Assembly (NCBI GenBank): GCA_902776195.1
Contig: CACYPF010000020.1
Location: 1-41,126 of the forward strand
Origin: an uncultured Prevotellaceae bacterium
Lineage (GTDB): Bacteria > Bacteroidota > Bacteroidia > Bacteroidales > Bacteroidaceae
Length of the DNA: 41,126 bases
Direction of reading: 5' to 3'
Positions 1 to 12,469 of this stretch are shown here, in pieces. The stretch's first letter is position 1, and each line of letters opens with the position of its first letter. Position numbers and translations under genes: made by a program. Under the pieces are notes generated by a model. The model was not told the DNA's origin, ran no database searches, and saw nothing but the letters and a program-made list of their open reading frames with translations.

Positions 1-116
1 GTCTGCTGAACAGCCTCCACCGATGCCTCGGGGTTAGCGGCCATTACAGGTGAGTACACGCCCAACAAAGAGCACGCACCCATCAGCAGCGCTGTCTTTC
101 TGATTTTTTGATTCAT
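1..116 (-). CDS. Partial SusC-like TonB-dependent transporter (5' end only)
   Basis: The reverse strand from 116 down to the window edge is an open frame starting ATG AAT CAA and encoding a signal peptide (MNQKIRKTALLMGACSLLGV...) plus the first mature residues. From codon 7 onward it is identical to the susC-like gene beginning at 1501; codons 4-6 differ (K-I-R here, A-F-K there). The rest lies outside the window, so the call as a second SusC-like outer-membrane transporter rests on this shared N-terminus. It has a good promoter about 210 bp upstream on the same strand and is therefore the partner likely to be expressed in the present orientation. It could also be a pseudogene further out; that cannot be seen here. 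Confidence 0.75.
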   Translation of the reverse strand, partial: MNQKIRKTALLMGACSLLGVYSPVMAANPEASVEAVQQ

Positions 117-127
117 ACTTAAGTATT
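1..127. repeat. Left arm of the susC inverted repeat
   Basis: Bases 1-99 are the exact reverse complement of 1518-1616, and 108-127 match 1490-1509 apart from the short divergent patch at codons 4-6. The identity runs to the window edge, so the true arm may be longer. The arm covers the start codon, the signal peptide and early mature codons of the left susC. A 12-bp palindrome (ATACTTAAGTAT) straddling the start codon occurs at both ends (115-126 and 1491-1502). Such arms are substrates for site-specific or homologous inversion. Confidence 0.93.
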
Positions 128-326
128 TTTCTTAGATTGATTGGATAAATACATTGTTAGATTTTAGATGAGTGGAGATTGTAAATCCCCTTCCACGCCA
201 AGTCCCTCGGACTCGCAATGGCCGTTTGTCATGATTCTTCTTTATGGCATAGTTTTTGGCTTTAAATTTTAATTTTATGTTAATAGTCGTTTATATGTTT
301 TCTCGTGAAGATACAATTTCACCATG
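117..326 (-). promoter_or_regulatory. Long 5' leader of the left susC (about 200 nt)
   Basis: No gene fits in 117-416. Reading the minus strand from the promoter at 356-327, about 200 nt are transcribed before the start codon at 116. The leader can fold a short hairpin at 215-199 (7-bp stem with one G-U pair and a 3-nt loop). No known riboswitch is recognisable. As the leader lies inside the invertible segment it would be attached to whichever susC is on. Confidence 0.5.
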
Positions 327-356
327 CAAAAATAAAACTTTTTTACGAAACGGCAA
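327..356 (-). promoter_or_regulatory. Outward promoter of the invertible segment
   Basis: On the minus strand TTG (356-354), 19 bp, then TATTTTTG (334-327) match the Bacteroidetes primary sigma consensus (TTTG, 19-21 bp, TAnnTTTG). It reads toward the left susC. No equivalent was found reading toward the right susC. Confidence 0.7.
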
Positions 357-416
357 CGTCTTTTATTGACAATTTTTGATACTTTCTTGCTTTTTTGCCG
401 TTTTTTGAACGGTTTG

Positions 417-1421
417 TTAACAAATCCAACACTTTTTAGTCAATAAGTGTAAAAATGACAATATGATTTTTTTGATAAAAAGATAACCCCGATTGTCTAC
501 CTTTTTTGAAAATATACTACTAAGTCGGAGCTCCAGATGTTGAAAGTCGTTGGTGAGCTTCTTCATGGTGATACGTGCATATATTTGGGTGGTTGTGATA
601 TTTGAATGTCCTAAAATACGACTGACACTTTCAATAGGCACTCCCTGGTTGAGAGCCATAATAGCGAAGGTGTGACGAGCACAGTGGAATGTGACAGGTC
701 TTGTGATACCATTCTCTTTCATGACTTGCCGCAACCGCTTTGCTATGGCATGGTATCCGAGTAGGTCGAATATTCGCTCTTTGAGGGGGTCTGCATAGCG
801 TTCGAGAATGGTGAGTGCCTGCGGCAGGAGTCTTACCTTGAAGGGAATACCTGTCTTATGGCGGGAAGTGATAATCCATTGGTAGCCGTCAATCTCATAG
901 ATGTCAGATTTCCGCAACGCACTGATGTCAACAAAAGACATGCCGGTAAGAGCGGAAAATACAAAGATGTCACGAGTGTAGTTTTGCAGAGGATGGTCGA
1001 AATGACGGATCATCAACCGGTGGAGTTCTTCTTCCGAAAGGTATTGTCGCTCTCGAATGTTTTTGGCAATATGAAACTCTGCAAAGGGGTTGGTGAGTAT
1101 CATTCCTCTTTTGTGTGCTCGTTGCACAACACCTTTCAGCATCATACAGTTGAGCCAGATAGTACCATTTCTGAGTCCTTTTTCAACACTCAAATAGGTA
1201 CTGAACCGATGGATGAAGTCTGGATCTATTGAAGAGAGGGGTATGTCCTTCTTATGTTCCCACGACAATAGAAAATCTGCTACAACTTCTCTCGCGCGTA
1301 CCATAATATTATAAGAGTGCCAAGAACGATCCTTCCCAACCCTGACAGAGAATTGCTCATTGTCACGGTCAAAGGCTTCCAACAAGGTAATCGATTTGTT
1401 TTTTTGATATTTTCTTTTCAT
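417..1421 (-). CDS. Tyrosine recombinase / DNA invertase
   Basis: This 334-aa site-specific recombinase probably catalyses inversion of the segment in which it lies. An N-terminal SAM-like core-binding region (about 10-110) is followed by the catalytic domain. Visible catalytic residues are the beta-hairpin Lys189 (RHKTG), His246 and Arg249 (FHCARHTF), His272 (ILGHSN) and nucleophile Tyr281 (TTTQIYARI). The first catalytic Arg (usually TGLR) is replaced by Ser162 (TGMSFVD), as reported for IntDOT-like Bacteroides recombinases. The hydrophobic, Lys-rich C-terminal tail beyond 310 is unusual. The gene ends 61 bp before the outward promoter, starts 79 bp from the right susC, and has its own promoter at 1485-1455. 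An integrase of an integrative element is less likely because no other mobile-element genes are present. Confidence 0.92.
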   Translation of the reverse strand: MKRKYQKNKSITLLEAFDRDNEQFSVRVGKDRSWHSYNIMVRAREVVADFLLSWEHKKDIPLSSIDPDFIHRFSTYLSVEKGLRNGTIWLNCMMLKGVVQRAHKRGMILTNPFAEFHIAKNIRERQYLSEEELHRLMIRHFDHPLQNYTRDIFVFSALTGMSFVDISALRKSDIYEIDGYQWIITSRHKTGIPFKVRLLPQALTILERYADPLKERIFDLLGYHAIAKRLRQVMKENGITRPVTFHCARHTFAIMALNQGVPIESVSRILGHSNITTTQIYARITMKKLTNDFQHLELRLSSIFSKKVDNRGYLFIKKIILSFLHLLTKKCWIC

Positions 1422-1454
1422 AATTGTAAAAATATTTTATACATTCATTATTCG

Positions 1455-1485
1455 CAAAGATAGTGATTATTAATGGGATATCAAA
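1455..1485 (-). promoter_or_regulatory. Promoter of the recombinase gene
   Basis: Minus-strand TTTG (1485-1482), 19 bp, TATCTTTG (1462-1455) is a near-perfect Bacteroidetes promoter. Transcription would start near 1451, leaving a leader of about 30 nt before the recombinase ATG at 1421. The promoter lies next to the right repeat arm and inside the invertible segment. Confidence 0.75.
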
Positions 1486-1489
1486 ACTT

Positions 1490-1616
1490 AATACTTAAGT
1501 ATGAATCAAGCATTTAAAAAGACAGCGCTGCTGATGGGTGCGTGCTCTTTGTTGGGCGTGTACTCACCTGTAATGGCCGCTAACCCCGAGGCATCGGTGG
1601 AGGCTGTTCAGCAGAC
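1490..1616. repeat. Right arm of the susC inverted repeat
   Basis: The reverse complement of 1-127: 1518-1616 is identical to 99-1, and 1490-1509 to 127-108. It spans the start codon, the signal peptide and codons up to about 39 of the right susC. The sequence after 1616 cannot be compared because the left copy leaves the window. Confidence 0.93.
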
Positions 1617-4599
1617 GGTGGCAACAGGCAATCAGTCAAACTTCAACATCACCCTGCAGGAGGACAATGCCCTGCTGGATGAGGTGGTAGTTGTCGGTTA
1701 CGGTGTCCAGAAGAAGAAACTGGTTACCGGTGCCACTGTTCAGGTAAAGGGTGAGGATATTGCCAAGCTGAACACCACCAACGCCCTGACCGCCATGCAG
1801 GCAAGTTCTCCTGGTGTGAACATCACCCAGAGTTCTTCACAGCCTGGTAAGGGTTTCAAGGTAAACATCCGTGGTGTCGGTACTATTGGTGAGTCATCTC
1901 CGTTGCTGATTATCGATGGTATCAATGCAGGTACCGCAGATAACGGTCTGAACGGTTTGAACCCTAACGACATCGAGAGCATCGACGTGCTGAAGGATGC
2001 TGCCTCCGCAGCCATCTACGGTGCCCGTGCCGCCAACGGTGTTATCTTGGTAACCACCAAGCAGGGTAAGGCAGGTAAGCTGTCTATTCAATATGACGGT
2101 TACGTAGGTTGGTCAAATGCCTACAAGGTTCCTGGTGTGCTGAACGCACAGCAGTTGATGCAGGTTGTTAACGAGACCAACTTCAATACATACGGTACAG
2201 CAACAAACTGGGGCAGTTTGCTTCCTTCTGATATTCTCGCAAAGGTCAATGGCGGATGGAAGGGTACCGACTGGTTTAAGGAGTACGAGAACAAGAATGC
2301 CCTTCAGTTCAGCCACGCTGTGACGCTGAGTGGCGGTTCAGACCGCTCTAAATTCTCTCTGAGTTTGAACTACAGTTCTAACGAAGGTATCATGGGTGGT
2401 GACAATGCATCATCATACAAGCGTTATGGCGGTCGTATCAACTCCGAGCATATCGTCCTGAAAGGTAAAGACCTGCTGGGTGAGGAGCACGACCTGCTGA
2501 CCATCGGTGAGAATGTTTCTTACTGGTATCATAAGAGTCACGACCTTGCTGAGAGCAATGGTTATTGGAATATCATGCAGGCAGCCTATATCGCCTCTCC
2601 ATTTGTGTTGCCTTATAATGGCGATGGTTCTATAACCAGCTATGCGGCTAACCATGCAGGCTATAGTGATATGATCTACGGTCAGCCCCTGAACCACTTC
2701 CTTAATGGTGGTTTCAGCTCACTGAACAAGAACCGTGACTTCGGATTTGGCGCTACCATCTACTGGATAGTTGAACCAATCAAGAACCTGAAGTATCGCG
2801 GTCAGTTCAATACTGGTTTCAGTGGTTCTAACTACCGCAGCATTGGTCTGCCTTACAGTTCCAGTTCTACCTCTGCCAGTGCCAGCTATACCATGAACAT
2901 GAACGAGTATGAGAGCAGTAGCTTCACAATTGAGAATACCTTGTCATACGTTCTTCCTCAGCTGGGCAAGCATACTATCGACGTACTGGTTGGTCAGAGC
3001 TTCGAGCGTTCAAACTGGAGCACTGGAATGTCAATGAATTTTGAGACAGGTGCAGATAACTTGAATTCACTTATTTATAATGGTTGGGACTACAACATTC
3101 CTTCCAACTACGAGAAGGTGACTGGTCACTCTGGTTACGATAATCCCCGTCAGGGCAACATTGCCTCTTTCTTCGGTCGTATTAACTGGAACTACGATGA
3201 GAAATACATGCTGACCGCAATCCTCCGTACCGATGGTAGCTCTAACTTCGCCAAGGGCAAGCGCTGGGGTACCTTCCCATCAGTTTCCGCAGGTTGGGTC
3301 ATCACCAACGAGCCATTCATGGCAAAATCCAGCAAATGGCTGGACTTCTTGAAACTCCGTGCTTCTTGGGGACAGAACGGTAACTGTAACATCGGTAACT
3401 TCTACTATCTGTCTAATATTGCCTTCTCTCCAACGGACTATGCTGACTATGGCTACAAGTTCTCCAGCAGCATGCTGAATACTGTTAATCGTTGGGTCTA
3501 CCAGACAGGTGCATATGCTAAGAATGCTCCTAATGAGGATGTAACATGGGAGACATCTGAGCAGTGGAACATTGGTTTGGATGCTCGCTTCCTCAATGGC
3601 CGCTTGGGACTTGCCTTTGACTGGTATGTGAAAAAGACGAAGGACTGGCTGGTACAGGCTCCTATGAACGAGGTGCTTGGCTATGAGGAACCCGCATATA
3701 TCAACGCTGGTGACGTGAAGAACACCGGTGTCGAGATTGCCCTCTCTTGGCGCGATAAGATTGGTAAGGACTTCAACTACCATGCCAACCTGAACTTCGC
3801 TACCAATAAGAACGAGGTAACCCGTCTGGGTACTGCTTCCGGTAAGATTGGTGACGATGCTCAGAGCTCATTGTTCCAGAACTCTTCTTATGTTTCTCTC
3901 GTTGAGGAAGGTCATCCTATCGGCTACTTCTCAGGAATGTCTTACAGTGGCATCTGGCAGAATCAGGCTCAGATTGACGCTGCCCGTGCAGCAGGCAAGG
4001 CAGTGCTTGCTGATGCTCAGCCTGGTGATCCTATCTGGGACGATTATAATAAGGATGGTCAGATTTCTCTCTCTGAGGACCGTCATGAGATTGGCAACCC
4101 CCACCCGAAAGTTACCCTCGGTGTAAGCCTTGGCTTCGAGTGGAAGGGTATTGACTTCGGTGTAACAGGTTCTGGCGCTTTCGGTCATAAGATCATGCAG
4201 TGCTACCGTACCGCCCTGCTTGCCAACCAGTATCAGAACTATACGGTTGACGTATTCGACCGCTGGCATGGCGAGGGTACCAGCAACACAATGCCCCGTC
4301 TGTCGGTAGGTGCTATCGCTGACCAGTGGGTATCTACCCGCTACATGCAGAAAGGTGACTACTTCAAGATTCAGAACATCACCTTGGGTTACGACTTCAC
4401 CAAGCTTTGGAAGTCTTCTCCTTTCCAGCAGTTGCGTCTCTATGTACAGGCTCAGAACATCGCAACCATTACTGGTTACACAGGTGTTGACCCAGAGGTC
4501 GGTTCTTCTGGTGGTGGTGCAGGCTGGGCACGTGGTATCGACGTAGGTCTGTATCCTTCTGCACGTACATGGATTGTTGGTGCAAGCATTAAGTTCTAA
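1501..4599 (+). CDS. susC: SusC/RagA-like TonB-dependent outer-membrane transporter
   Basis: A 1032-aa outer-membrane beta-barrel that imports a glycan or peptide with its SusD partner, powered by TonB. Seen: a signal peptide ending around VMAA (residue 27), a TonB box EVVVVGYG (61-68), a plug domain with the SusC signature (VNIRGVGTIG, PLLIIDG, IESIDVLKDAASAAIYGARAANGVILVTTK) and a large barrel ending in the typical terminal aromatic KF. The carboxypeptidase-like N-terminal extension of many SusC proteins is absent. The first ~39 codons form one arm of the inverted repeat. No promoter is visible in the 79 bp between it and the divergent recombinase, so it appears switched off in this orientation. 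The susD gene follows after 28 bp. The substrate cannot be told from sequence. Confidence 0.95.
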   Translation: MNQAFKKTALLMGACSLLGVYSPVMAANPEASVEAVQQTVATGNQSNFNITLQEDNALLDEVVVVGYGVQKKKLVTGATVQVKGEDIAKLNTTNALTAMQASSPGVNITQSSSQPGKGFKVNIRGVGTIGESSPLLIIDGINAGTADNGLNGLNPNDIESIDVLKDAASAAIYGARAANGVILVTTKQGKAGKLSIQYDGYVGWSNAYKVPGVLNAQQLMQVVNETNFNTYGTATNWGSLLPSDILAKVNGGWKGTDWFKEYENKNALQFSHAVTLSGGSDRSKFSLSLNYSSNEGIMGGDNASSYKRYGGRINSEHIVLKGKDLLGEEHDLLTIGENVSYWYHKSHDLAESNGYWNIMQAAYIASPFVLPYNGDGSITSYAANHAGYSDMIYGQPLNHFLNGGFSSLNKNRDFGFGATIYWIVEPIKNLKYRGQFNTGFSGSNYRSIGLPYSSSSTSASASYTMNMNEYESSSFTIENTLSYVLPQLGKHTIDVLVGQSFERSNWSTGMSMNFETGADNLNSLIYNGWDYNIPSNYEKVTGHSGYDNPRQGNIASFFGRINWNYDEKYMLTAILRTDGSSNFAKGKRWGTFPSVSAGWVITNEPFMAKSSKWLDFLKLRASWGQNGNCNIGNFYYLSNIAFSPTDYADYGYKFSSSMLNTVNRWVYQTGAYAKNAPNEDVTWETSEQWNIGLDARFLNGRLGLAFDWYVKKTKDWLVQAPMNEVLGYEEPAYINAGDVKNTGVEIALSWRDKIGKDFNYHANLNFATNKNEVTRLGTASGKIGDDAQSSLFQNSSYVSLVEEGHPIGYFSGMSYSGIWQNQAQIDAARAAGKAVLADAQPGDPIWDDYNKDGQISLSEDRHEIGNPHPKVTLGVSLGFEWKGIDFGVTGSGAFGHKIMQCYRTALLANQYQNYTVDVFDRWHGEGTSNTMPRLSVGAIADQWVSTRYMQKGDYFKIQNITLGYDFTKLWKSSPFQQLRLYVQAQNIATITGYTGVDPEVGSSGGGAGWARGIDVGLYPSARTWIVGASIKF

Positions 4600-4627
4600 T
4601 TCAAAACACAAATAAGAATAGAAGAAT

Positions 4628-6472
4628 ATGAAAAAGATATTTTTAATGGCAATCGCAGCCGCTTTCACACTTGCTTCTTGTGATGGTCAGCTCGATTCCG
4701 CAAACTATACGGCAGCGAATACCAGTAACTATCCTGCTTCAGCAGGTGACCTGAACAAGGAGCTGTCAGCACTCTATGGTGTGATGAACCAGATGAGTAC
4801 CAATCCTCTGGAAACTCCATGGTTTGTAGGGTACATCATGTCTGACGATGCCAATGGTGCAGGTGGTACTGGTGACGTGGAGTCGCATGCCATAGGTCAT
4901 TTGATGACCAATAAGGAGTCTCTTTATGATAATGCTTGGCATAATACTTATGTAGGTATTGCCCGTGCCAATGCCATCATCTATGCTGTTGACGCTTTCG
5001 ACTGGACTGGCCAGGAGGCTACCCGTAACCAGCTACTGGGTGAGGCTTATTTTATGCGTGGTCTGTTCTATCTCTGGGGTGTTCAGTTCTGGGGTGATAT
5101 TCCTGCCTATTGGGAAGCTGCCGCTCCTGACCCATGTCCACAGCAGAGTGCCGAGGACGTGATTATGCCACATATCCTTGCAGACTTTACCAGTGCTGCG
5201 AATCTGATGTCACATGGTGCAACCACCAAGGGTGACGGTCATGCCACCAAAGGTGCCGCTGAGGGTTATCTGGCACGTGCCTATATGTTCTACGAGGGCT
5301 TCTATAAGAAGGCTGGTGAGCTTGCCAATGCCTCTCTTGCTGATGTAGCCTTTGACTTCACACAGGAAGGTGCAGGAACGTCTTTGTCAAAAGCTCAGGT
5401 TGTCTCCTTCCTCGAGGATGCCATTAACAATGGTGGTTATAGCCTTGTAGAGGACTTCCGTCTGCTCTGGCAGTACACCAACGAGTTAACTGCTCCTACT
5501 TATAGTTTTGTAGCAGATCTTGCTGCTCAGAACAAATATTGGGCTGGTAACGGTAACACTGAGGAGATGTTCCAGGTTCAGTATATGAACTCCAACTCCT
5601 GGAATGGAACAATCGGTATGGGATTCTGTAATCAGGTAGAACTTTATACTGGTCTTCGTTGCGATGATGATGGTGCTGGTCATACCAATGGCGGTCCAGA
5701 GACTTATCCGTTCGGACAAGGCTGGGGACAGGGTACTATCAATGCCAACCTGTGGGATGACTGGCCAAGCAGCGACCCACGTAAGAAAGCAACTATCCTT
5801 GATGTTTCAAGTGAACTCTCTGCATACTATTTCACGACCTCTTGTTCTGAGGATGCAGGTTACTACAATAAGAAATGGATTTGCATTACGGCTCCTGAGT
5901 CTGATGGTACTGGTGGTAGTCACTATCCTTGGTGGGGTGTATGGCGTTGGAAGAACACCTCTACTGAAGCTCCTAACGGTAACTCCTTCCAGGGTGATCA
6001 CTTCTCTGATATGGTATTGCTCCGTCTTGCTGACGTGATGCTGATGCACTCTGAGCTGACAGGTACTGCCACCTATATGAACAGAGTACAGGCTCGCGCC
6101 GGTGTTCCGCAGACAGGATATTCTTGGGCTAACATCAAGAACGAGCGTCGTTGGGAGCTTGCCGGTGAGGGTCTCCGCTTCAATGATCTTCGCCGCTGGT
6201 CTGGTAAGGGCGGTGGAGCCAATTGTGAGGCTGCCGTTGCCCTGCAGAGACAGGAAGGCTCTCGTGTGAACTACACTGGTACATGGACAAAGATGAGCCA
6301 TGGTAAGGGCGTCGGTGGTAGCAGCTGGGCACAGCGTTATGCTGATACCGACGGTTTCCTGCCAAAGCCTCCCGCACAGATCAGTATTGTCAATAATCCT
6401 GAGGTTCTGAGCCAGAACAAGGGTTGGTATGACGATACCAAGTGGAGTATGTCTGGTACACCTGTTTATTAA
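4628..6472 (+). CDS. susD: SusD/RagB-like nutrient-binding lipoprotein
   Basis: A 614-aa surface lipoprotein that forms the substrate-binding lid on the SusC barrel. The signal peptide has a lipobox LASC with the lipidated Cys at 18, followed by Asp-Gly, the acidic start typical of exported Bacteroidetes lipoproteins. SusD-family features are the TPR-like helical N-half with RANAIIYAVDAF, the motif EAYFMRGLFYLWGVQFWGDIP and a late WELAGEGLRFNDLRRWS segment. It is somewhat longer than many SusD proteins. It follows susC by 28 bp and is presumably cotranscribed, so it should share the on/off state of the upstream switch. No glycoside hydrolase accompanies it, so the ligand is unknown. Confidence 0.94.
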   Translation: MKKIFLMAIAAAFTLASCDGQLDSANYTAANTSNYPASAGDLNKELSALYGVMNQMSTNPLETPWFVGYIMSDDANGAGGTGDVESHAIGHLMTNKESLYDNAWHNTYVGIARANAIIYAVDAFDWTGQEATRNQLLGEAYFMRGLFYLWGVQFWGDIPAYWEAAAPDPCPQQSAEDVIMPHILADFTSAANLMSHGATTKGDGHATKGAAEGYLARAYMFYEGFYKKAGELANASLADVAFDFTQEGAGTSLSKAQVVSFLEDAINNGGYSLVEDFRLLWQYTNELTAPTYSFVADLAAQNKYWAGNGNTEEMFQVQYMNSNSWNGTIGMGFCNQVELYTGLRCDDDGAGHTNGGPETYPFGQGWGQGTINANLWDDWPSSDPRKKATILDVSSELSAYYFTTSCSEDAGYYNKKWICITAPESDGTGGSHYPWWGVWRWKNTSTEAPNGNSFQGDHFSDMVLLRLADVMLMHSELTGTATYMNRVQARAGVPQTGYSWANIKNERRWELAGEGLRFNDLRRWSGKGGGANCEAAVALQRQEGSRVNYTGTWTKMSHGKGVGGSSWAQRYADTDGFLPKPPAQISIVNNPEVLSQNKGWYDDTKWSMSGTPVY

Positions 6473-6498: not shown

Positions 6499-7962
6499 AT
6501 GAAAAAATCAATATTATTGTTCGCAGTCGCTTTAGGCATGTTGACGGCTTGTAGCCCCCAGAAGGAGGAGAAAGGCTTCGACGTGACCAATATTACTGCA
6601 GACAAGTTGCTGGATGGTGCTACATTCTCACAATATAATGCTATCAAAGATGAGGCAGGTAATATTACGGGATATGAGGAGGCTGCCGATGGTAACTGGA
6701 TTAAGTACAACATCCCCAGTGTGTCAAGCGTCTACATCTTCTATTTGAAGGCAGATGGCTCTGAGTTTAAACTTTCAAGTGGTGCCGCTGGTGGTATGTT
6801 CAACTTTGTCCCCAAGCGTGGTTCTGATCCTTTGCAGACTGTCTATTTCCGCTATGTTAATCAGGATGGTGAGGAAGTAGTGGCTTCTAAGGAATTCACA
6901 CTTCAGGTAGCAGGTGAACTGGAGATGCCTGTACGTTATCTGGCTTCTAACGAGTATGGTGAGAAGACTTGGTATTGGGATCCTTCTATCACAGGTGCCG
7001 TTTGGGGTAACATGGGTTACCAGCCTGGCACTGGTGAGTCAGTAGGTACCACTGGTAACGGCCAGTGGTGGGGTGTCACCACTTCTGAGGAATTCAACGG
7101 TCAGCTGCAGCATACAGAGGATGGAACTAACCATGGTGATGGTGACCTCAATGCATACATGACATTCTCTGAGGATGGTATCCTGAATGCTTACGATGCC
7201 AATGGTAAAGTTATTCGCACTGACACCTATGCCGTTGAAGGTTGGGATCCCTCCGGTGAATGGAAAGTAGGTGACCTTGTTACAAAAGCCATCTTGTGGC
7301 CGTACGAGATTAACTCTGGTGGTAACATCCCCGGAAAATATGAGATAGTTTACCTGACATCCGACAAGATGACCCTCGTTTATCCTGATGGTGGTAGCCA
7401 AGGTGGATGGGGAGAAGCCTCCTTCTGGCATTTCTGCAGCAACTCAGACCTCATGGGTAACATCGCAGGTTATGAGGATGGAAAGTCCTGGACATGGGAT
7501 CCTTCTGTTACTGGTGCTGTCTGGGGTAACATGGGGTACCAACCTGGTGATGGTGCATCTGTAGGTACCGCTGGTAACGGTCAATGGTGGGGTGTCACCA
7601 CTTCTGAGGAATTCAACGGTCAGCTGCAGCATACAGAGGATGGGACTAACCACGGTGACGGTGACCTCAATGCTTACATGACCTTCGGTACCGATGGTAT
7701 TCTGAAAGCATACGATGCCAATGGCAATGAGATCCGCTCAAGTGCGTATGAGTTTGTACCAGTAGCAGGTAGCGATTGGAAGATAGCAGACTTGAAAACC
7801 ACGTCTATCCTGTGGCCATACGAGATTAACTCCGGTGGTAATATTCCTGGTACCTACGAGGTTGTATACGCAACTGGCAGCCAGATGACACTGGTTTATC
7901 CTGATGGTGGTAGCCAGGGTGCTTGGGGTGAGGCTTCTTTCTGGCACTTCAAGGCAAAATAA
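6499..7962 (+). CDS. SusE/F-position surface lipoprotein with a tandem-repeated domain
   Basis: A 487-aa lipoprotein, third in the susCD operon where substrate-binding SusE/SusF-type proteins usually sit. The start at 6499 is chosen because it gives a clean lipoprotein signal (MKKSILLFAV..., lipobox LTAC, Cys18) and follows susD by 26 bp; an in-frame ATG at 6442 would overlap susD. After an N-terminal region of about 150 residues come two nearly identical domains of about 158 residues, each opening with WDPSxTGAVWGNMGYQPG and ending GGSQGxWGEASFWHF. They are rich in Trp, Gly and Asn, as in carbohydrate-binding modules. The family is not one I can name; glycan binding is an inference from position and composition. 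Confidence 0.85.
   Translation: MKKSILLFAVALGMLTACSPQKEEKGFDVTNITADKLLDGATFSQYNAIKDEAGNITGYEEAADGNWIKYNIPSVSSVYIFYLKADGSEFKLSSGAAGGMFNFVPKRGSDPLQTVYFRYVNQDGEEVVASKEFTLQVAGELEMPVRYLASNEYGEKTWYWDPSITGAVWGNMGYQPGTGESVGTTGNGQWWGVTTSEEFNGQLQHTEDGTNHGDGDLNAYMTFSEDGILNAYDANGKVIRTDTYAVEGWDPSGEWKVGDLVTKAILWPYEINSGGNIPGKYEIVYLTSDKMTLVYPDGGSQGGWGEASFWHFCSNSDLMGNIAGYEDGKSWTWDPSVTGAVWGNMGYQPGDGASVGTAGNGQWWGVTTSEEFNGQLQHTEDGTNHGDGDLNAYMTFGTDGILKAYDANGNEIRSSAYEFVPVAGSDWKIADLKTTSILWPYEINSGGNIPGTYEVVYATGSQMTLVYPDGGSQGAWGEASFWHFKAK
6961..7953 (+). repeat. Tandem in-frame duplication inside the lipoprotein gene
   Basis: Unit 1 (6961-7434) and unit 2 (7480-7953) are offset by 519 bp (173 codons) and share long identical DNA runs, for example the stretch encoding QWWGVTTSEEFNGQLQHTED. 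A 45-bp linker separates them. Nucleotide-level similarity suggests recent duplication or gene conversion. Confidence 0.9.
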
Positions 7963-7984: not shown

Positions 7985-8905
7985 ATGATAAGACTTATGA
8001 ATATCAAGAATTATATAAAAGGTGGGGCTTTCGCTGCCCTGACGATATTTGCCGTTGCTTGTAGCAGTGACGACTCTCCTGCACCTGTGGTTCCCACACC
8101 GGGTTCAACGGGTACGGCAGTCGACCTGGGTCTGAGCGTTAAATGGGCAGACCATAACGTTGGCGCTACTACTGCTGAGGGATATGGTAACTACTACGGA
8201 TGGGGCGACCCGACGGGCACCCTACAGTCTAAGGCTACCGGTGACTATGTAGTTGGTTTGTCTCCAAAGCTGGAAGACCTGTTTGAGTTACAGAAAGGTG
8301 ATATGACTGCTGAGGCTAAGCGAGATACGACGATTATCAATACTTACGATCCTAAAGACTTTGACAAGACTACTGTCGAGGAAGGACAGATTGTCTTCAC
8401 TAAAGACGGAAAAGTCGTTGTAGGTGAGGAGGTCATTACCTATCTCTATAGCGGTGCTGGCTGTCCTGTCTATGCTTACCGTATAGATGGTGAGAGTAAA
8501 TACGATGCCGCTACCGCTAACTGGGGCTCTTCATGGCGTATGCCTACCTCTGATGAGTTGGCAGAGTTGGTAACAATGTGTGAATGGACTCTTGGTACAC
8601 AAAATGGTGTGAAGGGTTATACGGTAACTGGTCCTAACGGCAACAGCATATTCCTCCCATTGGCAGGCTATCGTATCGGCAATGAGATTGTCGGAGCCGG
8701 ACAGAACGGTTTCTACTGGTCTGGTGTGGTTGATGGAGTTTATAACTTCCCTACAGGACCTGAACAGTACAATGGCTCCATCGGTTCTATCACAGCAAGT
8801 AAGAATCCTACAGCCCTTGTAATGAATGAAAAGGGTGGTGCCTTAGACAATATTTTCTTCTATGGCGTGGCTCTTGGTCAGACCATCCGTCCAGTGCAAG
8901 AGTAA
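7985..8905 (+). CDS. Lipoprotein with Fibrobacter-major-paralogous-like domain
   Basis: A 306-aa lipoprotein, last gene of the susC operon, 22 bp after the previous stop. A second in-frame ATG at 7997 (MNIKNYIKGG...) gives an equally good signal peptide; either start leads to FAVACSSDD with the lipidated Cys followed by Ser-Ser-Asp-Asp. The mature part has features of the Fib_succ_major family common in Bacteroidetes surface proteins: VDLGLSVKWADHNVGA near the start, YYGWGDPTG, then WGSSWRMPTSDELAEL, and a late GFYWSG. The biochemical role of that domain is unknown. It probably decorates the cell surface with the SusCD complex. A rho-independent terminator follows at once. Confidence 0.83.
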   Translation: MIRLMNIKNYIKGGAFAALTIFAVACSSDDSPAPVVPTPGSTGTAVDLGLSVKWADHNVGATTAEGYGNYYGWGDPTGTLQSKATGDYVVGLSPKLEDLFELQKGDMTAEAKRDTTIINTYDPKDFDKTTVEEGQIVFTKDGKVVVGEEVITYLYSGAGCPVYAYRIDGESKYDAATANWGSSWRMPTSDELAELVTMCEWTLGTQNGVKGYTVTGPNGNSIFLPLAGYRIGNEIVGAGQNGFYWSGVVDGVYNFPTGPEQYNGSIGSITASKNPTALVMNEKGGALDNIFFYGVALGQTIRPVQE

Positions 8906-8941
8906 TGTGAATCATACTTTATAGTATTTATCTTATTCTAC

Positions 8942-8977
8942 CGCCCCGCATCCATGAAGATGTGGGGCGTTTTTTTT
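8942..8977 (+). terminator. Rho-independent terminator of the susC operon
   Basis: An 11-bp stem (8942-8952 with 8959-8969, one G-U pair) with a 6-nt loop is followed by eight T residues. It lies 36 bp past the last stop of the operon. Confidence 0.93.
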
Positions 8978-9001
8978 GATATAACTGTGTTTTTAAAATT
9001 G

Positions 9002-9093
9002 CGGAAAAAAGTGTCAATCTATCATTTTTTCCGTGTAATCTTTTGTTTGTCAAGTGATTATGGCTTGATAGATGATATGATAGATTGATAGAT
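9002..9093. repeat. Overlapping inverted repeats and GATAGAT cluster
   Basis: CGGAAAAAA (9002-9010) pairs with TTTTTTCCG (9025-9033). TCAATCTATCAT (9014-9025) pairs perfectly with 9077-9088. GATAGAT recurs at 9067, 9079 and 9087. The two stems share bases near 9025 and are mutually exclusive. Function unknown; it may be an operator cluster or RNA structure. Confidence 0.6.
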
Positions 9094-9190
9094 AAAGGCT
9101 GAAATCAAGGTATTTTTGAGATAATATGCCTTGATGGCTGTATGGTTTTACATCAAAGCAGAGGGAGTATCCGGATAATGTAAACTGGTT

Positions 9191-9252
9191 GGTTCCCTTA
9201 AGGAAACCATTGGGTTCCTACGGGGAAACCATCGGTTTCCTTGGCGGAAACC
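9191..9252. repeat. Array of alternating GGTTTCC / GGAAACC half-sites
   Basis: Six 7-mers alternate in orientation: GGTTCCC (9191), GGAAACC (9202), GGGTTCC (9212), GGAAACC (9224), GGTTTCC (9234), GGAAACC (9246). Neighbours can pair in alternative ways; 9224-9230 with 9234-9240 and 9234-9240 with 9246-9252 are both perfect 7-bp stems. It lies about 56 bp upstream of the next promoter. It may be a palindromic intergenic repeat family or a multi-site operator. Confidence 0.75.
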
Positions 9253-9307
9253 TTTGTTTTCTCAAATCCGCACATTCGGTTTCTGGCATCGTTTTTACTT
9301 AAATAAA

Positions 9308-9339
9308 TTTGGTGGGTTCAAAAAGTGTTAGTATCTTTG
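9308..9339 (+). promoter_or_regulatory. Promoter of the DUF6057/CxxCH operon
   Basis: TTTG (9308-9311), 20 bp, TATCTTTG (9332-9339) fits the Bacteroidetes consensus. The expected start point near 9343-9346 leaves only a few bases before the ATG at 9348, so the message may be nearly leaderless. Confidence 0.75.
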
Positions 9340-9347
9340 CAAGGATT

Positions 9348-10997
9348 ATGGCTATGCTAACACGATACTGGAAATGGGGACTCACGATACTGATGGGCAT
9401 CGGAGTGTTGCTGTTCTGGGGGATGGGGTATCCGCATGCCCTGTCGTACCAGGAGCAGTATCAGTTGTTCTTATGGACAACCGACTATTTCCGGGAGCGG
9501 ATCAGTGTGGCAGGAAGTCTTGCCGACTGGCTGGGCGAGTTCATCACGCAGTTCTATTACTATCCCTGGGCAGGAGCCGTGTTGCTGGCTATCCTTTATA
9601 TGCTGGTGCAACAGTTGGTCGCCAAGTTGTTGCCCTCCTCTTTCTACCTGTTGAGTTTCGTCGTTCCCATCCTGCTCTGGTGGCATATGGGTAATGTCAG
9701 TGTGCTGCTGTCGTATGTGATGGCATTGGTGCTGGTGGTAGGGTTGGTAGGTGTTGTAGGGAAGGTAGGTATTGTAGGGAAGGTAGGTGTTGTAGGGGAT
9801 TTGGTGCTGATACCTGTTATCTACTGGTTGCTGGGTCCGATGGTATGGCTGTATGCCATGCTGCGGGTAGCCCTCTACGGGTGGAAATGGAGTTGGGAAC
9901 TGCTGTATGTCGGTGCCGTCATGGTACTGATTTCCGCTTTGATCCTCGTACAATGGCCCATGACGATGATTACCCTCTCGATGACCTATTTCCGTGTACC
10001 GATGGAAATCCCTGTGCTGCAGTGGCTGATCCCTGTGGTGACAGCCGTGATGGTGGGGATAGGCAGGTGTTGTAGGGAAGATAGGTATTGTAGGGAGAGT
10101 AGGTTTAGTAGGTGGATATGGTATGGTTGGCAGGTGGTGCTGCTATTGTTATTGGGATGGTTTGCCTATCAGAAAGGCTATGACAAAGACACCTATGAGC
10201 TGATATGGCAGGACTATCAGATACGCCATGAGCAATGGGACAAGATTATCAAGCGGGCAGGGGAGCGGACAGTGCGCACCCCTTTCTGGTCGAACAGTGT
10301 CAACCTCGCCCTCTCGCAGAAGCGGTTGCTTGCCGAGCGGATGTTCGACTTCTACCAGAGTGGTGACGATGCCCTCATCATGCCAAGGATGCGTGACCTG
10401 ACGAGTAACCTCCCTTCTGCGGAGGCATACTACCGTTTAGGACTCGTCAACTCCGCCCAGCGTTATATGTTCGACATCCAGGAGAGTATCCTCAACGGAA
10501 AGAAAAGCGGTCGCTGCACCAAGCGCATCGTCGAGTGCATGCTGGTGAACGGTCATTATAAGCCCGCCCTGAAGCATATCGACCTGTTGGAGAAGAGTCT
10601 GTTCTATCGGGGTTGGGCAGAGGAGGCACGTCGTGTGGTGACGGCAGATGCCAAGACCCGTGAGCAGCGTATCAATGCCCATCCACAGTTAGGATGGTTG
10701 CGACAGATCCGTTTCAAGGAGAACTTCCTGTATAGCCATGCGGAGAAAGACAAGATTTTCGGGTTGCTGTTTAATGAAAACCATGACAATAAGATGGCAC
10801 TCGACTATTTCATCGGCGAACTGCTGCTGCGAGGAAATGTACAAGGTGTCATGCAGTATATGTCATGGGCAGAGCAGTATGGTGGCTACCGTTATATGCC
10901 GGTAGGTTATCAGGATGCCGTGCAGTGTATCCAGAAACAAGGCAACCTGCCTGGTTCGATGTATGGTGCTTATGTTAAAAGGATGATGCAGCGATGA
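9348..10997 (+). CDS. DUF6057-like multi-spanning membrane protein, copy 1
   Basis: A 549-aa protein with an N-terminal half of about 8-9 hydrophobic segments and a soluble C-terminal half rich in helical, TPR-like sequence (YYRLGLVNSAQRYMFDIQES, RIVECMLVNGHYKPALKHIDLLEK). The conserved N-terminal motif LSYQEQYQLFLW also occurs in the copies at 13143 and 19336. I recognise it as DUF6057-like; function is unknown. The start at 9348 aligns with the paralogue's MSLLSKYWK; an upstream TTG at 9309 would put the promoter inside the gene. It overlaps the next gene by ATGA, suggesting coupled translation. Two loops between membrane segments are built from an 18-bp DNA repeat (VGVVGKVGIVGK and, in another frame, CCREDRYCRESR). 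Confidence 0.85.
   Translation: MAMLTRYWKWGLTILMGIGVLLFWGMGYPHALSYQEQYQLFLWTTDYFRERISVAGSLADWLGEFITQFYYYPWAGAVLLAILYMLVQQLVAKLLPSSFYLLSFVVPILLWWHMGNVSVLLSYVMALVLVVGLVGVVGKVGIVGKVGVVGDLVLIPVIYWLLGPMVWLYAMLRVALYGWKWSWELLYVGAVMVLISALILVQWPMTMITLSMTYFRVPMEIPVLQWLIPVVTAVMVGIGRCCREDRYCRESRFSRWIWYGWQVVLLLLLGWFAYQKGYDKDTYELIWQDYQIRHEQWDKIIKRAGERTVRTPFWSNSVNLALSQKRLLAERMFDFYQSGDDALIMPRMRDLTSNLPSAEAYYRLGLVNSAQRYMFDIQESILNGKKSGRCTKRIVECMLVNGHYKPALKHIDLLEKSLFYRGWAEEARRVVTADAKTREQRINAHPQLGWLRQIRFKENFLYSHAEKDKIFGLLFNENHDNKMALDYFIGELLLRGNVQGVMQYMSWAEQYGGYRYMPVGYQDAVQCIQKQGNLPGSMYGAYVKRMMQR
9746..9799 (+). repeat. 18-bp minisatellite, three units (copy A)
   Basis: Three consecutive units of the form GGTAGGTRTTGTAGGGRA at 9746, 9764 and 9782, preceded by degenerate half-units. 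In this reading frame they encode Val-Gly-rich VGVVGKVGIVGKVGVVGD between two membrane segments. Confidence 0.9.
10062..10115 (+). repeat. 18-bp minisatellite, three units (copy B, different frame)
   Basis: Units at 10062, 10080 and 10098 resemble those at 9746-9799 (for example GGCAGGTGTTGTAGGGAA) but are read in another frame, giving the Cys/Arg-rich GRCCREDRYCRESRFSRW. The corresponding loop of the paralogue at 13143 is shorter and lacks it, which suggests insertion or expansion here. Confidence 0.85.
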
Positions 10998-12469
10998 AGA
11001 GATTTCTTTTGATAGGTTTGGTAGGTTTGGTAGGGATGGTAGGGCTGGTAGGGTGCCGGCAGGAACCTGCCGATGCTGTCCTGGTGAAGCAGCAGCCTGC
11101 TATCTATCCGGACTATATAGATGTGACTGTTCCTGCGGGGATGGCACCGCTGAACTTCAACGTCCTCGGAGAGGGCATCGACAGGGTCGATACACAGGTG
11201 ACAGGTAGCAAGGGTGGTTCCTTGCGTGCCAACGGGGACTATGCCGATTTCGATATGGAGGAGTGGCACCAGTTGACGGAGCAGAACAAAGGTGGTGAGC
11301 TGACCGTCACCGTCTGTGTCCGCAAGGACGGCAAGTGGTTGCAGTATCAGGACTTTAAGATTTATGTCAGTCCCTATGCCTTGGACGACTGGGGTGTGAC
11401 CTATCGCCGTATTGCCCCCGGCTATGAGGTAGGAGGTAATATAGGCATGTACCAGCGTGACATCCATACCTTCGATGAATATGCCATGCTGCAGGAGTCG
11501 GCAGTGCCCGGCCGTTGTATGAACTGTCATACCCCCAACCGCACAGACCCCTCCCGTTTCACCCTTCAGATCCGTGGTGAGGGAGGTGGTACGCTGGTGC
11601 AGATGGACGGCAAGCAGAAATGGTATGATACCAAGACCGACTCCACGAAGGCAGCAGGGTCGTATGCCTATTGGCATCCCTCCGGCAACTATTGTGCCTA
11701 TGCCACCAATGCCGTCCACCAAAGTTTCTTTGTGGGTACAGGACAGCGTATCGAGGGTTATCATAACTTCAGTAATGTGGTACTGCTCGACGTGAATAAA
11801 GACGAGCTCATCCTCACCCCCGAGTTGATGACAGAGACCGACCTGGAGATATTCCCCGCCTTCTCGCATGACGGGAAGCACCTGTTCTATAGTACCTCGA
11901 AAGCATGCAATGTCCCTGCCGAGTATATGAAGGTGAAGTGCAGCATCTGCCGTATTGGTTTTGATGCGGAGAAAGGACAGTTTACCCATGAGGTGGACAC
12001 CCTGCTCAACGGACCCCGTGATGACCGCAGCTATACGCTGGCACGTCCCTCCTATGACGGTCGGTGGATGATGTATAATGTGACCAGTCGCAGTAACTTC
12101 CCCGTCTTCCAGCCCGATGCCGACCTCTGGCTGATGGACTTGAAGACCGGTGAGACACGTCCTTTGAAGGAGGTGAACAGCCATCAGTCGGAGAGTTACC
12201 ATAACTGGTCGAGCGACAGTCATTGGTTTGTGTTCGCCTCGAAGCGGGAGAATGGCATGTATGCACAGCTCTTCTTCGCCTCTGTTGACGACAAGGGACA
12301 TGTCACCAAACCCTTCCTGTTGCCGCAGAAGAACCCCCAGAAGTTCTATCGCGAGATGTTCGACTCGTATAATGTCCCCGACTTCACCAAGGTGAAGGTC
12401 GACTTCGATGCCCGTGAGGCTATCCGGCAGGTGTTTGGGAATGAGCGTGTGAAAGTGAAGATTAAGTAA
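10994..12469 (+). CDS. CxxCH-containing TolB/PD40-like lipoprotein, copy 1
   Basis: A 491-aa envelope lipoprotein. The signal peptide is an iterated Gly-Leu-Val stretch ending LVGC with Cys21. An N-terminal beta-domain (about 30-130, IYPDYIDVTVPAGMAPLNF) is followed by Cys175-Met-Asn-Cys178-His179, a canonical c-type haem attachment motif, and then a PD40-like propeller (YWHPSGNYCAYAT, FPAFSHDGKHLFYST, ARPSYDGRWMMYN, NWSSDSHWFVFASKRENG). If the motif is used, this is a single-haem c-type cytochrome at the outer face of a membrane; the haem is inferred. Proteins of this type have been labelled TolB-like or cytochrome c biogenesis proteins in databases, but I know of no demonstrated function. 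It overlaps the membrane-protein gene by ATGA, as in all three pairs here. Confidence 0.85.
   Translation: MKRFLLIGLVGLVGMVGLVGCRQEPADAVLVKQQPAIYPDYIDVTVPAGMAPLNFNVLGEGIDRVDTQVTGSKGGSLRANGDYADFDMEEWHQLTEQNKGGELTVTVCVRKDGKWLQYQDFKIYVSPYALDDWGVTYRRIAPGYEVGGNIGMYQRDIHTFDEYAMLQESAVPGRCMNCHTPNRTDPSRFTLQIRGEGGGTLVQMDGKQKWYDTKTDSTKAAGSYAYWHPSGNYCAYATNAVHQSFFVGTGQRIEGYHNFSNVVLLDVNKDELILTPELMTETDLEIFPAFSHDGKHLFYSTSKACNVPAEYMKVKCSICRIGFDAEKGQFTHEVDTLLNGPRDDRSYTLARPSYDGRWMMYNVTSRSNFPVFQPDADLWLMDLKTGETRPLKEVNSHQSESYHNWSSDSHWFVFASKRENGMYAQLFFASVDDKGHVTKPFLLPQKNPQKFYREMFDSYNVPDFTKVKVDFDAREAIRQVFGNERVKVKIK
11012..11053 (+). repeat. 9-bp GGTnTGGTA repeats encoding the signal peptide
   Basis: Nine-base units ending TGGTAGG repeat through codons 7-20 and encode GLVGLVGMVGLVG up to the lipobox Cys. 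Similar units occur at 14900-14941 and resemble half-units of the 18-bp repeat at 9746-9799. Confidence 0.8.

Follow-up and report, generated by a model that had tools for sequence, protein, structure and literature searches.

Introduction

In the Hin flagellar switch of Salmonella, a recombinase gene and an outward promoter lie within a short inverting segment that has inverted sites at its ends, and Hin itself is a serine recombinase. The locus described here resembles that arrangement in that a recombinase gene and an outward promoter are found inside a segment with inverted ends, but its recombinase is of the tyrosine type and both of its ends face a homologous operon.

In Bacteroides, SusCD regions are known to invert (PMC12632263, PMC12548429 and PMC4747536), in agreement with what the initial annotation of this DNA states on inversion switches of surface proteins in that genus. 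The targets of Bacteroides fragilis Tsr0667 comprise three SusC/SusD clusters and nine further regions (PMC4747536). Like Tsr0667, the enzyme considered here is a tyrosine recombinase of the Bacteroidales that, judging from sequence, would alter SusC/SusD expression by DNA inversion; unlike Tsr0667 as portrayed there, it is encoded inside the segment, between two operons. B. fragilis Tsr19 (BF2766) and similar enzymes (PMC4747536) are likewise tyrosine recombinases located near an inverting promoter of surface genes. The Tsr19 promoters, among them a distant one, turn the operons that they face ON or OFF, whereas here one of two homologous operons would be served in each state. A survey of gut invertons (PMC11892184) places TonB-dependent receptor and SusD genes near invertons, and describes adjacent invertase genes as generally not under the inverting promoter.

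The DNA analyzed here (the window) is a stretch of 41,126 nt that makes up the whole of contig C20 in a 42-contig genome (G000) of an uncultured Prevotellaceae bacterium. We propose, with a probability of about 0.75, that positions 117–1500 are an invertible cassette by which one or the other of two divergent SusCD operons is chosen for expression.

Organization of the locus

The ends of the proposed cassette are named with respect to the recombinase gene, side A being its 5′ side and side B its 3′ side; X is the right operon and Y the left. Both promoters were assigned by motif, on what we take to be the Bacteroidota consensus.

1–127, minus strand: left arm of the inverted repeat, core plus codons 1–38 of susC Y, truncated by the contig edge
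117–127, minus strand: end B, 11-mer AATACTTAAGT, proposed recombination site
117–327, minus strand: B leader, about 211 nt up to the core, with a conserved hairpin motif at 197–221
327–357, minus strand: putative outward promoter, TATTTTTG at 327–334 and GTTG at 354–357, spacing 19 nt
417–1421, minus strand: short-form tyrosine recombinase, 334 aa, intact open reading frame with PF00589 and PF13102
1455–1486, minus strand: putative recombinase promoter, TATCTTTG at 1455–1462 and TTTTG at 1482–1486, spacing 19 nt, adjoining end A
1490–1500, plus strand: end A, 11-mer AATACTTAAGT, proposed recombination site
1490–1616, plus strand: right arm of the inverted repeat
1501–4599, plus strand: susC X, SusC by TIGR04056, on the A side, which is promoterless in the assembly
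4628–6472, plus strand: susD X, directly after susC X
6499–7962, plus strand: third gene of the X operon, no Pfam family above cut-off

Positions 1–127 and 1490–1616 form an inverted repeat of 127 nt in which 122 positions (96%) are identical, with 1362 nt between the arms. The exact part, 1–99 against 1518–1616, is 99 nt long, far above the longest exact inverted match of 18 nt (mean 13.0) in 200 simple shuffles of positions 1–6000, and the initial annotation's figure of at least 99 identical bases holds. Its placement of the repeat inside coding sequence and in register is equally borne out: both arms are in frame from the ATG, they read MNQKIRK on the left and MNQAFKK on the right with identical residues thereafter, and the signal peptides are kept. 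Since the window is an entire contig that starts inside the left arm, only 38 codons of the left susC are present and 99 nt is a lower bound; the exact length may possibly reflect a k=99 assembly break at the contig edge.

The left gene was sought elsewhere. With the right SusC as query, G000 yielded a susC on contig C25 that runs to the contig end and is missing its 5′ end. In a second assembly, G035 (RUG037, OMWH01000001.1), a single contig holds the cassette together with both susC genes in full, in the order two genes matching C25 (96% and 93%), a SusCD operon, the recombinase (90%), the X operon, and one further gene matching window positions 9348–10997 at 95%. Because of this synteny C25 and C20 are taken as neighbors in G000, with the C25 gene as the left partner, and the end of C25 most likely holds the body of susC Y. 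The claim of two divergent susC genes thus stands in full on the right, where SusC is followed by SusD, and on the left depends on C25 for all but 38 codons. Between G000 and G035, SusC X is 80% and SusD X 76% identical, and SusC Y 44% and SusD Y 38%, so that the operons vary within a conserved setting. The cassette has the same orientation in both, and G035 by itself is therefore no evidence of inversion.

The similarity between the two susC genes continues past the inverted repeat. In codon alignments, X and Y of G000 agree at 88/90 positions in columns 100–130, past a length difference, and at 66/90 in the next stretch; this renewed identity indicates that the homologous arm extends past 1616. 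X of G000 and X of G035 agree at 86/90 in columns 100–130. In columns 160–200 the X–Y figure within G000 is 68/117, and that for X between G000 and G035 is 114/117. Over the first 40 columns the pair in a third genome, G173, agrees at 104/114, and X of G000 and X of G173 at 94/111; in the same columns X–X identity between G000 and G035 (115/117) exceeds X–Y identity within G035 (60/66), mostly because of codons 4–7. Overall, within-genome paralogues come near or above orthologues only toward the susC 5′ end, and it is there that the genes are homogenized within genomes. Length differences in susC 5′ regions were seen at window positions 1616–1620 and in loci L052, L058 and L094; frame-keeping changes affect X of G000, both G035 genes and one L058 gene.

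The recombinase and its relatives

The annotation of a tyrosine recombinase between the two susC genes was correct. The gene occupies 417–1421, between the ends at 117–127 and 1490–1500, and its PF00589 catalytic domain (tyrosine recombinase/phage integrase family, not serine type) scores 64.4 bits against a cut-off of 27.1. The active-site residues K, H, R, H and Y (K, HxxR, H, Y) are present in all 13 aligned short forms. The position of the first catalytic arginine reads TGMSF, presumably as in IntDOT-type enzymes. Among solved structures the top sequence match was a XerA recombinase; nine NCBIfam models matched, all below cut-off, and none gave a dedicated DNA invertase or XerC/XerD equivalog. 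The arm-binding domain PF17293 is absent by Pfam, and the protein is thus not a long element-type integrase. A scan of viral contigs found no relatives.

Within the genus, 65 of 399 genomes had a match to the recombinase (E ≤ 1e-60), and the 30 family loci examined fall into two length classes, short forms of 204–351 aa and long forms of about 400 aa or more. Where at least 3.6 kb of sequence was present on each side, 13 of 15 short forms were flanked by divergent homologous genes; L057, a member of the family, ends at a contig edge. The two exceptions, L093 and L098, have only one homologous gene left and recombinases broken by stops, and at L101 the recombinase is broken and the gene pair still present. 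Long forms were found between such pairs in none of two loci with long flanks and none of 18 with flanks of at most 1.5 kb; the corresponding short-flank count for short forms, which overlaps the long-flank set, was 7 of 11. Four of the 13 pairs (L099, L100, L101 and L103) are not SusC, and three of these, when checked, matched no Pfam family.

Two long forms examined, L095 and L097, share the catalytic and SAM-like domains of the window enzyme and about half of its residues. Both carry PF17293 and neither sits between divergent homologous genes, the opposite of the window form on each count. In an order-level sample 28 of 247 genomes matched the recombinase, and among the matches listed from outside the genus every open frame was at least 376 aa. 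The short form thus seems to descend from an element integrase that was recruited at the level of the genus.

Promoters and the B leader

Between the inverted sites, a promoter identified by motif faces outward at the B end, and none does at the A end: the outward motif is absent from the 79 nt on side A between the recombinase and SusC X. Across 16 loci an outward TAnnTTTG was found on B in 15 (all but L093) and on A in three (L093, L096 and L101), a contrast that is inflated by the greater length of the B stretches, up to 4.8 kb in L053. On side A the inward motif TTTTG-19-TATCTTTG, which should drive the recombinase, is present in exact form in five of the 16 loci (the window, L052, L092, L094 and L098). 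A promoter of the recombinase's own inside the segment would be in line with what the inverton survey reports of invertase genes (PMC11892184).

The B leader contains, on the minus strand of 117–327, a motif CCATTGCGRGTCC..GGRCTTGGC and a small hairpin, present as a single copy in G000. We considered the hairpin as a structured RNA and set the idea aside, since only one of the 11 pairs predicted shows a change in both partners, with a covariation term of −0.18; Rfam gave two chance-level matches in window positions 1–5000, both far under their gathering scores. In L053 (G173), positions 8004–12263 hold three extra genes between the recombinase and the B leader, among them an AAA/DUF4143 protein and a VapE-like primase-helicase protein.

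The 11-bp element

The initial annotation had placed the exchange inside the coding arms, with everything upstream of about codon 7 being swapped. At other family loci, what both ends share is an 11-mer ahead of the start codon instead of the coding arm; the pattern of codons 4–7, considered below, fits the swap as the initial annotation placed it. ACTTAAGT is present at both ends in six of the eight loci whose recombinase is at least 64% identical (the window and L052–L058), the exceptions being L057, where the contig edge cuts the locus, and L058, with none at end A. In seven loci, the six paired ones and L092, AATACTTAAGT was found at 14 of 14 ends, a count in which ACTTAAGT served as the alignment anchor and the identity of those 8 bases is by construction. 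The B flanks are alike across loci, mostly AAAGAAAAAT or CTAAGAAAAAT, as are the A flanks (CAAAACTTAAT in 5/7), and the outer flanks of the 11-mer are locus-specific. In L054 the 11-mer is common to both ends and the sequence on either side differs, outer flanks included.

Exact copies of the 11-mer number three in G000, two of them at the window locus, unlike the many dispersed sites of a Tsr0667-type shufflon (PMC4747536), which a search for exact 11-mer copies did not reveal in G000. The 16-base B end occurs exactly in eight of 399 genomes, G000 included. ACTTAAGT was also considered as a mark specific to switches and rejected: it stands before susC genes with no recombinase found nearby, directly preceding the ATG in the susC of L121, L122, L123, L131 and L132, where the stretch read yielded none. 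For this reason the argument for the 11-mer as the probable crossover site leans on L054, L055 and L056, in which it is separate from the ATG. L094 carries the palindrome ATACTTAACCGTTAAGTAT at both ends. At the four non-SusC loci (L099, L100, L101 and L103, in G417, G378, G153 and G194) the palindromes at both ends are GTTGSCCGCCAAC.

Position of the leader across species

The comparisons that follow are between different species, never between two strains of one species. In G000 and G035, Y has the B leader and X is on the A side. In G173 the X operon and seven further homologous genes, in order, are on the B side. In G357 a stand-alone X operon has the B leader, the hairpin motif, the core and an MNQKIRK start, and the 18-kb stretch examined yielded no recombinase; its SusC is 83% identical to that of G035 and 78% to that of the window, its SusD 75% and 73%, and three more homologues are arranged in the same order. 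G357 may be a former switch locked with X on.

A tree built on SusC gene bodies, 5′ region excluded, groups X of G000, G035, G173 and G357 with G216 at 100/100 and places Y of G000 elsewhere, also at 100/100; additional lineages are represented by Y of G035 and by the partner in G173, which sits on a long branch. Compared with the X leader of G357, the leader on Y of G000 shows an identity of 0.79; with those of the Y relatives G020 and G018 the values are 0.58 and 0.43. Together with the tree, this places on another operon in G000 a leader that is seen on X elsewhere. Against it, the leader of the X orthologue in G216 is a different one (0.56 identical). The 16- to 18-kb stretches read in G216 and G357 yielded no short-form recombinase. 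The G173 comparison is not clean, as the far flank of that locus is unrelated to the C25 region, which made a flank-to-flank test fail, and as three extra genes separate its recombinase from the leader.

Codons 4–7 read KIRK in all five genes that have the B leader, the CCATTGCG hairpin motif and an ATG abutting the core, namely Y in G000 and G035, X in G173 and G357, and another susC in G033. In G365, where the core abuts the ATG, the leader is of another type and the recombinase is broken, these codons read NLGK. The KIRK pattern fits exchange inside the arm, and would equally fit later conversion. G216 and G365 count against parts of the switch reading. The susC of G033 has a B-type leader in a stretch without a short-form recombinase match, and L058 has no core at its A end; L058 (RUG11506) and L061 (G033) are possible locked derivatives.

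Discussion

Our results suggest, from the position of the leader in related genomes, that flipping of the cassette decides which receptor is made. In the mechanism that we propose, the recombinase, expressed from its own promoter at the A end, would act on the inverted 11-mers just upstream of both start codons, and inversion would shift the sole outward promoter and its ~211-nt leader, at the B end, between the operons. The recombinase gene would travel with the segment, and hence either state could switch back; flipping is presumably ongoing. In the assembled state the left operon Y would be ON and the right operon X OFF, and presumably silent. The near-identical 5′ coding arms would make the signal peptides interchangeable, having been homogenized by exchange or gene conversion. 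As only the outward promoter and leader would move, the likely effect is a choice of operon and not the production of chimeric proteins.

Inversion and homogenization could also come about without the recombinase, if the near-identical susC 5′ arms underwent general homologous recombination. The arms are long, identical over at least 99 nt and homogenized further on, and codons 4–7 travel with the leader, which points to exchange inside the coding arm. We nevertheless regard this as unlikely, since 13 of 15 loci retain, between the two genes, a short-form recombinase with conserved active-site residues, and since the 11-mer of L054 is common to ends whose sequence differs on either side of it. 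That the recombinase is stop-broken at both one-gene loci argues in the same direction, yet L101 has kept its pair with a broken one. It is also improbable that the locus is now fixed, a pair of divergent operons with a leftover integrase in which past rearrangements gave the leader pattern and no switch is active. The single orientation in the window and G035 would agree with a fixed locus, as would relatives that look locked (L058 without its end A; G127 and G365 with a broken recombinase and one susC). Yet both the window and the close relative G035 encode an intact recombinase (90% identity), and the short form is without the PF17293 of long element-type integrases. Finally, an inverted repeat at a contig start might be a false join, and this contig does start exactly where the 99-base exact repeat ends; with arms that differ at 5/127 positions, a separate assembly (G035) that has both susC genes and the cassette on one contig, and further relatives that repeat the design, such an artifact is very improbable.

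Returning to the invertible cassette, we tentatively extend it, at somewhat less than even odds, to the family as a whole. The joint reading is of a portable recombinase-plus-promoter cassette derived from short integrases that were seen in this genus only; at the window locus X would be constant and the second slot refilled by three SusC lineages in three species, and the family loci would be either-or switches of surface-protein operon pairs, with palindromes that vary by locus and 5′ ends homogenized to fit. One member, L096 (G417:C20), has a flanking SusC pair that is 99.5% identical and outward motifs on both sides, and is not accounted for by an either-or switch.

SusCD inversion itself is already known; what would be new here is that a SusCD toggle of two operons in Prevotella has a recombinase of its own within it. 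The initial annotation held a self-contained switch of this kind to be undescribed, and within the literature surveyed that is what we found: a search that included PMC12118408, covering the accessible parts of its sources and with many subscription papers outside its reach, returned no Prevotella toggle of this design, a result that holds for that survey only.

SusCD receptors determine which glycans a gut Bacteroidota cell imports. If the proposed switch is correct, the costs and benefits of receptor choice would become testable at one locus, with one recombinase, two sites and two operons. It would also provide a small tyrosine-recombinase inversion system from rumen Prevotella, and an example of mobile-element integrases recruited as dedicated inverters.
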